Source: Kribbella jejuensis
Lineage (GTDB): Bacteria; Actinomycetota; Actinomycetes; Propionibacteriales; Kribbellaceae
Direction: 5' to 3'
Assembly: GCF_006715085.1 (NCBI RefSeq)
Contig: NZ_VFMM01000001.1
Coordinates: 1,612,001-1,676,000 of the forward strand
DNA: 64,000 nt
How positions within the stretch are numbered: position 1 is the first letter of the stretch; every line of letters begins with the position of its first letter. The position numbers and the translations under genes were made by a program. Shown piece after piece: positions 30,202 through 32,472 of this stretch. A model generated the notes under the pieces. That model ran no database searches. It was not told where the DNA came from and saw only the letters and a list, made by a program, of their open reading frames with translations.

Positions 30202-30284
30202 GCCCGGGTGGCGGAACGGCAGACGCAGCGAGCTTAAACCTCGCGGCCCTAACAGGCATACGGGTTCGAATCCCGTCCCGGGCA
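30202..30284 (+). tRNA. tRNA-Leu (anticodon UAA)
   Basis: 83-nt cloverleaf. The acceptor arms GCCCGGG/CCCGGGC pair perfectly with discriminator A. The anticodon stem GCGAG/CTCGC encloses the loop CTTAAAC (anticodon TAA), a long class II variable arm follows, and the T arm is ACGGG-TTCGAAT-CCCGT. CCA is not encoded. Its 3' half (30230-30285) is repeated imperfectly at 32418-32472, so it probably served as an integration site. Confidence 0.93.
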
Positions 30285-30285
30285 C
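30230..30285 (+). repeat. Left att-like repeat (3' half of tRNA-Leu)
   Basis: From the anticodon stem to just past the tRNA end. It matches 32418-32472 at about 47 of 57 aligned columns, including the exact stretch TTCGAATCCCGTC and then CGGGCAC. A direct repeat of a tRNA 3' end about 2.2 kb away is the normal footprint of integrase-mediated insertion. Confidence 0.6.
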
Positions 30286-30774
30286 AAACACCCCCCGCAC
30301 GCTCCGCCGGCACTCCGTCGCTCCGCTCCTCCCGCGCCCGCTCCACGCACTCCCACCCACCCCCCGCTTAGCGCGGTCCGTGTGTTCCGGCTGCCGCCGG
30401 GGAGTTGCGGCTACCGCCGCGTATTGCCGGCTGCCGCCGGCGGATTTGCGGGCTTGCGCCCGCGCGTTCCGGGCTACCGCCCGCGAGTTCGCGCTTCCGC
30501 GCGACAAGCCGCCCGTGGCGCGGCGTACCCGACGCGAGGAGGCAACCTAAGCATCGATCCCCGCGCCGTCCACGCAGCGTCACGCCCATCAGATCTGCAA
30601 TGGTCCCACCGACGGCCGCAGCCTCAAGATCACCCCACCCGCTCCATCGCTGCACCATCAACCACCAGGGGCACCGACGCCAAGCCTCCGAACTCTGACA
30701 GCGTCTCCAGGTCTTCAGGACGCGGCCGTCCAGGGCTTGAAAGCCTCCGCGCGCTTGACACCTTGCACGTCAAC
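30285..30774. other. Noncoding stretch downstream of tRNA-Leu
   Basis: 490 bp without a supported gene. 30300-30365 is pyrimidine-rich. 30384-30503 is a run of six mini stem-loops, listed separately. 30504-30774 shows no motif I recognise. Open frames crossing the region change phase relative to the stem-loop units and have no recognisable product. Confidence 0.6.
30384..30503 (+). repeat. Array of six tandem mini stem-loops with compensatory stem changes
   Basis: Six consecutive units spaced 19-22 nt apart. Each consists of RTT or TTT, a 5-6 nt arm, a 4-nt loop of form TNNC, and the exact complement of the arm. Arms are CCGGC/GCCGG (30387-30400), GCGGC/GCCGC (30407-30420), GCCGGC/GCCGGC (30426-30441), GCGGGC/GCCCGC (30448-30463), CGGGC/GCCCG (30470-30483) and CGCGC/GCGCG (30490-30503). 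Loops are TGCC, TACC, TGCC, TTGC, TACC and TTCC. The sequence varies while pairing is kept, as if structure were selected. It starts 100 nt after tRNA-Leu. Function unknown. Confidence 0.65.
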
Positions 30775-31905
30775 TTATGTCCGCCACGAGCCCGCGCGAC
30801 GGAAGAGAACAGTTTTCTGAGAGATTGCGGACAGGGTGTCCTGAAGCATCGGAACGGCTAGCTCTCGGGCAATAGCGTCAAACAAGTATGCCTGCTCTGG
30901 ATGCAGCTGGCTGTCGAACATTTGAGGTTTGTATCGCACCAGGGACGATGCGTAATATGTTAGCGCGTAACGGGCGAAGGCTGGCGGCATTGGGAGCATT
31001 CGAGTCTTATACAGACTGGGTGCGATCCAAGCATCGGAATCTTCAGAACTCTGCGTACCTAGGATGTCATCAATATCGAATATGATTCGGGTGGTAGATA
31101 CTGGAATTGCATTCACGCCTCGAGCGTCAATTTTCCTCAGCGATTCATGAAAGGTTAACGATCGGCTGAATGCGCGACTGAGAGCGAAATGATCCCTCCA
31201 GTCTGGCGGACGCTCGACCTCTTCGAAGTTTCGGGCAAGCAACTTCCGAGTAGCATTGTTGCCGCTCGGAATACCCGGGTCCGCTATCGCGATGAGGGAC
31301 CATGCCTGCTCCGCATCTCTTGCAAGCATTTGGAAGAGCCCAGAGACTTGACAAGTTCCACCGTCTACGGTGCTGAGTTGGGAGGCGATTTCAGGGATCT
31401 GGGTTAGAAGTCTTGCGACTGGCAGTCTTTCACCGATCCGAATTGTCTTGCCAAGGCGTCGTTCGTAGAGTAACCGAAAGATGCCATCCCTCACGATGAG
31501 GGCGTCGCCAGACACTGTCTTCGCCGCGGTTGGACTAAAGCTCAGGCCGTGACCGATCCGCCGATCCACGATATTGCCTGCATGCGTGTCGAGTAGTTCT
31601 GCCTTTGCGAAATTCATCATTGCGTAGTAATAGAGTAGAGCCGCTGATCTGTTCGGAACCAACTGCGCGGCTTGAAAGTTGCTTATCGCCTGTCGGGTGT
31701 AGTTCCGGAATTCACGCCAAAGGGCATTGCGTTCTGCAATTGTTCCGGGGAAACGCGCTCTGCCGACCTTGGCGATTTCAGAGTGCGTGCCGAGCGTCTC
31801 TAGGATGTAGGCAACCGACGCAGATTCGCCGACCGTCATGCCACCGGCGGTCGAAGGTGGGACTAGCACCCAATTCGAGTAAGGCCGAGCAGGACGAATA
31901 GACAT
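30775..31905 (-). CDS. YaaC-like protein, island-borne
   Basis: 376 aa protein of clearly lower GC and different codon use than its neighbours (ATT, AGT, TTT and AAT codons are frequent), pointing to transfer. It resembles the YaaC family: an N-terminal segment ending NRSAALLYYYAMMNFAKAEL (the family's L-L-Y-Y-x-x-x-N-L-A-K motif), a poorly conserved middle, and a C-terminal YALTYYASSLVRYKP block followed by an acidic helix. YaaC proteins are uncharacterised but recur in mobile and defence-rich regions. Start chosen at ATG 31905 with GGAG about 10 nt upstream; a longer frame to 31962 exists. It is the only convincing gene of the tRNA-Leu island. Confidence 0.5.
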   Translation of the reverse strand: MSIRPARPYSNWVLVPPSTAGGMTVGESASVAYILETLGTHSEIAKVGRARFPGTIAERNALWREFRNYTRQAISNFQAAQLVPNRSAALLYYYAMMNFAKAELLDTHAGNIVDRRIGHGLSFSPTAAKTVSGDALIVRDGIFRLLYERRLGKTIRIGERLPVARLLTQIPEIASQLSTVDGGTCQVSGLFQMLARDAEQAWSLIAIADPGIPSGNNATRKLLARNFEEVERPPDWRDHFALSRAFSRSLTFHESLRKIDARGVNAIPVSTTRIIFDIDDILGTQSSEDSDAWIAPSLYKTRMLPMPPAFARYALTYYASSLVRYKPQMFDSQLHPEQAYLFDAIARELAVPMLQDTLSAISQKTVLFRRAGSWRT

Positions 31906-32417
31906 ACCAGGGATGCTCCCAGACTCAGCCGGATGGCGGTAGGCGGGACGACCACTGGCCACGCATCGCGAACAGCCGCTTGGCCAACTCCAGACGCCCC
32001 ATCAATTCCACAGGGACTCCAGCCGGCCGCCTTCGATCGGTGTGTCAGACCGACGAACAGGCGTGATGTGTGCGGCCGATCCAGGCCCTGGGCCTAGCCA
32101 CAACGCGCAACGAGATGGGAAGGGTCGGCACGCCGCCGGGCGCTGGCGGACAAGGAAGATTCTTGGAGCGAATCACCCGCAACAAGTGTGTCCTCAGCCA
32201 ACTCGTCACAACGAGAAGCGGCGAAGATGCCTTGAAGATCAGGGGGTCGGCGCAGCGCGGAGTGATTCGCCGGCAAGCCCCCACCCAAAACATGGAAGAG
32301 GTCGTGGTTGCATCCGCGGTTGCAGCTCAGTCCGGTTCGGGCCAGTTCAGATGGTGCGCAGCGTGCTGGACAAGCGGTGGACGGACGCCGAGGGGCTCCG
32401 GCGGACACCGCCTGATC
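31906..32417. other. Right part of the tRNA-Leu island, no supported gene
   Basis: About 510 bp between the YaaC-like start and the tRNA remnant. Open frames exist on both strands but carry no recognisable motif, RBS or consistent codon bias. No integrase, excisionase or transposase fragment could be seen. The YaaC-like promoter should lie in the first part. Confidence 0.5.
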
Positions 32418-32472
32418 GAATTTAAAACCGCTGCCCTTACAGGTATACGGATTCGAATCCCGTCTCGGGCAC
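32418..32472 (+). repeat. Right att-like repeat (degenerate tRNA-Leu 3' half)
   Basis: Reads like the 3' half of the tRNA at 30202: TTTAAAACC, ACAGGTATACGG, TTCGAATCCCGTC and CGGGCAC. The anticodon stem no longer pairs and no coherent 5' half is present, so it is not a working tRNA. The bases just upstream (GGCGGA near 32399) may be residual D-arm sequence. It ends 2 bp before the J-domain gene stop. Confidence 0.6.

Follow-up and report, generated by a model that had tools for sequence, protein, structure and literature searches.

The genome of Kribbella jejuensis carries a chain of short hairpins downstream of a tRNA-Leu gene, which raises the question of what such a ladder is and what keeps its arms complementary. 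In the window (the whole stretch of 64,000 nucleotides that was analysed), this chain of six is the only one of more than two when tetraloop hairpins with stems of at least 5 bp are collected, and the longest chain obtained in 40 dinucleotide shuffles of the window had three, which upholds the six tandem mini stem-loops with perfect arms and TNNC loops reported in the preliminary description. Each hairpin is preceded by an RTT lead and has arms of 5–6 bp, the loops (TGCC, TACC, TGCC, TTGC, TACC and TTCC, in order) being spaced 20–22 nt from one to the next. All units are on the plus strand: unit 1 (30387–30400; CCGGC-TGCC-GCCGG), unit 2 (30407–30420; GCGGC-TACC-GCCGC), unit 3 (30426–30441; GCCGGC-TGCC-GCCGGC), which is orthologous in loci L002–L005 and L007, and the remaining three, likewise covered by the ortholog alignment described below, namely unit 4 (30448–30463; GCGGGC-TTGC-GCCCGC), unit 5 (30470–30483; CGGGC-TACC-GCCCG) and the terminal unit 6 (30489–30504; TCGCGC-TTCC-GCGCGA). 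Terminal units in the orthologs read GCGCGC/GCGCGA and are followed by YCGAC. The arm sequences had been taken to differ in all six units; units 1 and 3, however, share an identical 14-nt core, CCGGCTGCCGCCGG.

The extent originally given to the feature, 30384–30503, also had to be revised, since its true start lies much earlier. A hairpin missing from the first list precedes the six at 30364–30376 (plus strand; CCGC-TTAGC-GCGG; fold −5.8 kcal/mol); it is weaker than them and is found at the same position, adjacent to the leader, in other copies. Upstream of it is a C-rich, G-poor leader module at 30292–30360 on the plus strand, recognised by a leader HMM (E=9e-8), by its composition and by alignment with the leaders of other copies. 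The stretch 30286–30365 is 62% C and 15% G, and a C/G skew equal to that of this leader is reached by only 0.4% of the 75-nt windows in the 64 kb. The leader starts 7 nt past the tRNA-Leu(TAA) gene (30202–30285, plus strand; ARAGORN; Rfam tRNA, 54.5 bits), which is the transcription unit ahead of this copy, and fills the space between the tRNA and the ladder. An Rfam search of the region up to E=1 returned no family besides the tRNA and one chance-level match. Folding of the array stretch as DNA gives exactly the six hairpins. In the RNA MFE fold of the whole array, arms of different units pair together, so a six-hairpin ladder in RNA presumes local, co-transcriptional folding.

Upkeep of the stems and the tRNA-Leu site

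An orthologous array follows tRNA-Leu in six species (that of the window, G011, G009, G021, G006 and G002), several other species have no array at this site, and at the empty sites L013, L016 and L018 the tRNA abuts the convergent gene directly. The proposal that the locus is an integration site is in keeping with a diverged, attR-like copy of the tRNA-Leu 3′ part at 32421–32472 (plus strand), recognised by its sequence and by its position at the right edge of a segment absent from several relatives. The array itself is not specific to tRNA or integration sites; most copies adjoin protein genes, and because the majority follow such genes, a link to the tRNA or to integration was rejected as the explanation of the array. 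The ladder and the attR-like copy are separated by approximately 1.9 kb (30506–32420), with a 395-aa YaaC-like protein on the minus strand (PF14175, E 4e-16) and little else; PADLOC gave no defence match in this segment. Behind tRNA-Leu in L019 (G008) there is a divergent tandem version of the array, with GGCTCCTCCGTCGCC units, 9-nt loops and TNNC-like ends, repeated as larger blocks.

Complementarity was assessed in 344 units from three genomes, picked solely by the core GCTNNCGC, against shuffles of the right-hand bases within species. The three pairs beyond the core are Watson–Crick in 92, 92 and 90% of the units versus 70, 65 and 72% after shuffling (z about 15), and control cores elsewhere pair at 32–36%. 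An alignment of the tRNA-Leu orthologs from the six species, comprising the last four units registered by hand, contains 13 two-sided changes versus 5.9 in shuffles and has a covariation score of 0.242 versus 0.089 (0/500); 93.8% of its cells pair, the independent events being fewer than the cells because the six sequences are dominated by two clades. Changes in one arm are thus compensated in the other, as had been proposed, and the stems are kept as stems. In one ortholog (G009, L003), two units no longer pair. Since pairing was lost there and several species have lost the array, no single copy is essential. Within the stems, neither G-U nor A-C mismatches are frequent, and the two occur in similar numbers; the sixth pair shows an excess of G-U on the gene-sense strand (35% vs 28%, z 4.2) but none of A-C.

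A dispersed modular element of Kribbella

The segment 30292–30504 belongs to a dispersed family of modular elements specific to Kribbella, of which it is a single copy. When the tRNA-plus-array stretch was used as a nucleotide query, the window's own genome yielded 33 matches, and each of the others searched (24 congeners and 14 further genomes of the order) at most 26; the matches span both leader and array. A covariance model built from 32 copies, the E-values of which are rough, matches 32 of the 38 Kribbella genomes, with at least 86 matches in G011, 58 in G013 and 39 in the own genome; recurrence in related genomes, set beforehand as a check, was therefore found. Among 294 genomes of the order, the same model gave only four weak matches outside Kribbella (E 1.5e-5 to 6.5e-4). 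A two-hairpin pattern matched 14, 79 and 62 times in three rich genomes and never in the reversed control, and was present in five of 395 genomes of the class, including the window's own, with a single match in each of the other four. A three-hairpin pattern gave repeated matches in Kribbella and scattered single matches in unrelated taxa. Four matches to this pattern at regular short spacing in Actinoplanes sp. NBRC 103695 (L083, 5979–6297) probably represent an independent tandem repeat. No earlier description of the element, in Kribbella or elsewhere, was found in a literature search of open-licence papers.

In the layout common to the copies, a leader some 75 nt long is followed by a first hairpin, by 20-nt hairpin units and, often, by a terminal hairpin with an RTGACTGC tail, the number of chained units per copy ranging from 0 to 13. 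The leader is 52% C and 22% G over 89 copies. Internal units are of the type TTCCGGCTNNCGCCGG, with cTNNCg loops; their lead, which is RTT in the window, is TT(C/G) in most units elsewhere, and each hairpin is followed by a G-rich spacer without T-runs. The penultimate unit is often TGCCGGC or TGTCGGC, and the terminal hairpin is TGCGAGC, TGCGGGC or TGCGCGC, after which comes RTGACTGC or a variant of it. Of 310 tetraloop hairpins collected without any rule on the loop, 280 have T as the first loop base and 292 have C as the last, and in 295 the closing pair is C-G. Classified by loop ends, 311 hairpins are TNNC and 3 are GNNA. The GNRA subset is not enriched on the antisense strand, and the two DNA strands differ in fold energy by only 0.2–0.3 kcal/mol in the model used. 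The loops drift by species, with TATC in G011 and TTGC and TGAC in G013.

Likened by layout alone, the element resembles the BOX elements of Streptococcus pneumoniae, which are built of boxA-boxBn-boxC modules (PMC3049150). In both, a tandem array of variable length stands between fixed modules at the 5′ and 3′ ends (here, 0–13 units between the leader and, in many copies, the terminal hairpin with its RTGACTGC tail); both are intergenic and enriched in convergent gaps, and both are predicted to form RNA stem-loops. They differ in that the 20-nt unit of Kribbella forms a hairpin by itself, with a TNNC loop and arms that covary, in that its leader is always toward the gene, and in the genus in which they occur. 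REP/BIME sequences are GTAG- and CGTC-tagged palindromes found in arrays, mostly downstream of genes or between convergent genes (PMC3733652). They have in common with the ladders the many short palindromes, the location at gene ends and in convergent gaps and the arrays, whereas the Kribbella ladders run directly head-to-tail behind a long conserved leader; no GTAG or CGTC tag was present in the copies examined, the lead being RTT or TT(C/G). A CRISPR array, in which direct repeats are identical and unique spacers have a constant length, is not formed by these units, which are differing hairpins, 20–22 nt from loop to loop.

Placement at gene ends and comparison of gaps

Genes were called with our own codon-usage script in loci chosen for carrying the element, the neighbourhoods of which supplied the control gene ends. 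No overlap with a predicted gene was seen for any of 93 leaders, and in 74 of 92 cases the neighbouring gene presents its 3′ end to the leader (binomial p 3e-9); counted per gene side, 52 are 3′ and 16 are 5′. The leader starts within 30 nt of the stop codon in 31 of the 74 copies on 3′ sides versus 0 of the 18 on 5′ sides, where copies stay at least 54 nt from the gene, and the median distance to the gene on the array side is 800 nt. Some copies lie in divergent gaps or on 5′ sides. Among the matches listed for ten genomes, neighbouring copies are oriented +- in 28 cases, ++ in 7, -- in 6 and -+ in none, the leaders of oppositely oriented neighbours pointing outward in 28 of 28, and in multi-copy regions + copies always stand ahead of - copies. 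Leaders are outward and ladders inward, regardless of the direction of the flanking genes. Several regions are ordered stop codon, long stem, leader.

At least ten sites are common to two or three of G000, G011 and G013, a number that we estimate to be above chance expectation for some tens of sites per genome. At the site of a gntR-family gene, arrays are present only in these three genomes (3 of 30 species), G014 retains a leader, and remnants of the leader or of the terminal unit are found in others. Copies at the same site, whether inverted or direct, are more alike than copies across sites (0.88–0.89 vs 0.85). Orthologous leaders of different species are no more alike than non-orthologous ones (0.832 vs 0.831), so that leader sequence cannot reveal site history, and its site-specific descent was rejected. 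These sequence similarities suggest local duplication plus saturation or homogenisation.

In the manC gap, the two array-bearing species (G000 and G011) have no stem longer than 7 bp, and 15 of 21 other Kribbella have one hairpin of 10–20 bp resembling a bidirectional terminator. A composite in G011 sits between two arms that form a perfect 20-bp palindrome in G002, and either the palindrome may have been split by the composite or the composite may have collapsed. Canonical stems are present at 5 of 33 gene ends with the element versus 15 of 69 convergent ends without it (p 0.6); a strict genome-wide replacement of canonical terminators is therefore unsupported, though it had looked convincing at the manC site. 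An unrelated 29-bp repeat, CCCGAGGCGGCGTCCGCCTAACGACACCG, every copy of which includes a GGCGG/CCGCC hairpin, occurs eleven times in the manC gap of G018 (L259, 2125–2444), and a 21-bp repeat, ACAACACGAGCGGATGTCCGG, five times in that of G019 (L244, 2121–2224).

Candidate roles of the ladders

Actinobacteria often lack classical U-tract terminators, and the way in which neighbouring genes are separated in them is debated. The reading that we favour, at a probability of roughly 0.4, is that the element may be a unidirectional transcription-exit terminator or insulator. It is preferred because the polarity, the nearness to stop codons, the C-rich and G-poor leader and the hairpin ladder all fit it, together with the argument that hairpin clusters without U-tracts, proposed as terminators in high-GC genomes, can serve this function (PMC8355165). 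RNA polymerase leaving a gene or a tRNA would transcribe the leader, the unstructured C-rich RNA of which could, to judge from its composition, load Rho. The GC-rich hairpin ladder would then pause the polymerase and shield the new 3′ end, and read-through into the facing gene would be cut off. A convergent gap would hold one copy per side because each copy, as proposed, acts in one direction, and divergent antisense transcription would be halted by the copies on 5′ sides.

The absence of leaders from genes, their preference for 3′ ends and their 28:0 outward order favour a terminator or insulator, and so do the 311:3 loop polarity, which implies that one strand matters, and the G-U enrichment at the sixth pair. 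The manC arrays, placed where others have a hairpin like a bidirectional terminator, and the G011 composite between palindrome arms point the same way. Against a terminator stand the gene ends with the element, which are no poorer in canonical stems, and the stop codon–long stem–leader order, which makes a second terminator redundant. Copies placed on 5′ sides or within divergent gaps also count against it, as does G-U being no commoner than A-C within the stems, unlike the prediction for selection on RNA, and the dispensability of single copies, with arrays in only 3 of 30 species at the gntR site.

Compared with known terminators, the ladders are closest in form to clusters defined as two or more hairpins less than 15 nt apart near a gene end (PMC8355165), a definition that describes them as well. 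In both cases consecutive short hairpins begin no more than tens of nucleotides past the stop codon, with no need of a U-tract, in a high-GC actinobacterium, and tandem hairpins after M. smegmatis gyrA are cited in the same work; its cases are unrelated sequences predicted gene by gene, whereas the Kribbella ladders are homologous to one another, share a conserved C-rich leader and keep the ends of their loops fixed. A canonical intrinsic terminator has one GC-rich stem and a U-tract, and the element instead has 5–6 bp stems and G-rich spacers. Rho-dependent terminators call for C-rich, G-poor, unstructured RNA ahead of the stop site, which the leader, to judge from its composition, may provide. 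Bidirectional intrinsic terminators share its genomic position, as the G011 composite flanked by arms of a palindrome intact in G002 illustrates, but the element has no long single stem or U-tract and is present as two directional copies rather than one symmetric hairpin.

The strongest rival, rather doubtful in our judgement, is that the ladders are functionless by-products of DNA metabolism, in which slippage adds units and fold-back template switching (quasipalindrome correction) keeps the arms complementary and makes local inverted copies, which persist in gaps because they do little harm there. Homogenization of arms by template switching is described in PMC8604942 and PMC7202029. Such a process would account for strictly Watson–Crick stems with few G-U or A-C intermediates, for the greater likeness of same-site copies, for loops that drift by species, for sites that are freely lost leaving leader or terminal remnants, and for the manC gap of G018 and G019, where the tandem hairpin repeats are unrelated to the element. 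The missing G-U excess inside the stems argues for templating at the DNA level; the near-absolute loop polarity argues for strand-specific selection. Template switching would be expected to invert spacers (PMC8604942), yet inverted spacers are nearly absent here (3 GNNA loops versus 311 TNNC), and the conserved leader, the leader-outward order and the 3′-end preference are left unexplained, so that polarity and the outward rule are hard to accommodate. A DNA function is unlikely, but has points in its favour: as a BIME-like landing site, the element would recruit gyrase, a nucleoid protein or a structure-specific protein handling transcription-driven supercoils at gene ends, perhaps via hairpins opposite the gene sense strand. 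This is consistent with the bias of the copies toward 3′ ends and convergent gaps, with the symmetry of G-U and A-C mismatches inside the stems, and with a bottom-strand loop that is GNNA closed by C-G, with NN free, which we take to be an extra-stable DNA tetraloop, the RNA-favoured GNRA subset not being enriched. The near equality of the strands in fold energy counts against it, and it accounts neither for the strong polarity nor for the C-rich leader.

That the element is a miniature mobile element of REP or MITE type, moved in trans by a transposase and preferring gene ends, is quite improbable, even though it is dispersed and non-coding, its copy number is species-specific (0 to at least 86) and the leaders, as the inverted outer ends of two-leader composites, resemble terminal inverted repeats. 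An all-against-all search found no shared core among the longest matches between copies, which consist of elements and tandem spacers, and the sites shared between species imply that any spread is old. No Y1_Tnp domain (PF01797) was found in G000, G011 and G013, the three richest genomes, with positive controls, and a RAYT-driven REP was rejected for want of a transposase in the rich genomes. The only Y1_Tnp protein among the 38 Kribbella genomes (G429:C7:51482-51820, L272) is in a genome without matches to the ladder model. The sense-strand location, close behind stop codons and behind a tRNA, would suit a processed regulatory small RNA or a device for mRNA 3′-UTR stability, which is nonetheless very unlikely given the multiple copies, often in tandem or inverted pairs and also at 5′ sides, and an Rfam result limited to the tRNA and a chance match. 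It is also improbable that a genus-specific factor reads the polar cTNNCg ladder, either as gene-sense RNA or as GNNA DNA hairpins of the opposite strand, and so closes gene boundaries one-way; were this true, the drift of loops by species would reflect co-evolution of ladder and factor.

Because the ladder is a homologous, directional element that can be counted at dozens of gene ends, and because orthologous gaps offer natural presence/absence pairs, the question of gene separation becomes directly testable. The hundreds of covarying short hairpins with one loop polarity are likewise data for weighing selection on structure against template-switch repair. Another long palindrome, its centre resembling GGTAATNGC (one example being GGGGACCGGGAAGAGGTAATGGCATCTTCCCGGTCCCC), is found in mid-gap in L031 (4600–4660), in L040 (4090–4520) and in flanks of G012 and G023 (L219 and L217), and is possibly a second recurrent element.
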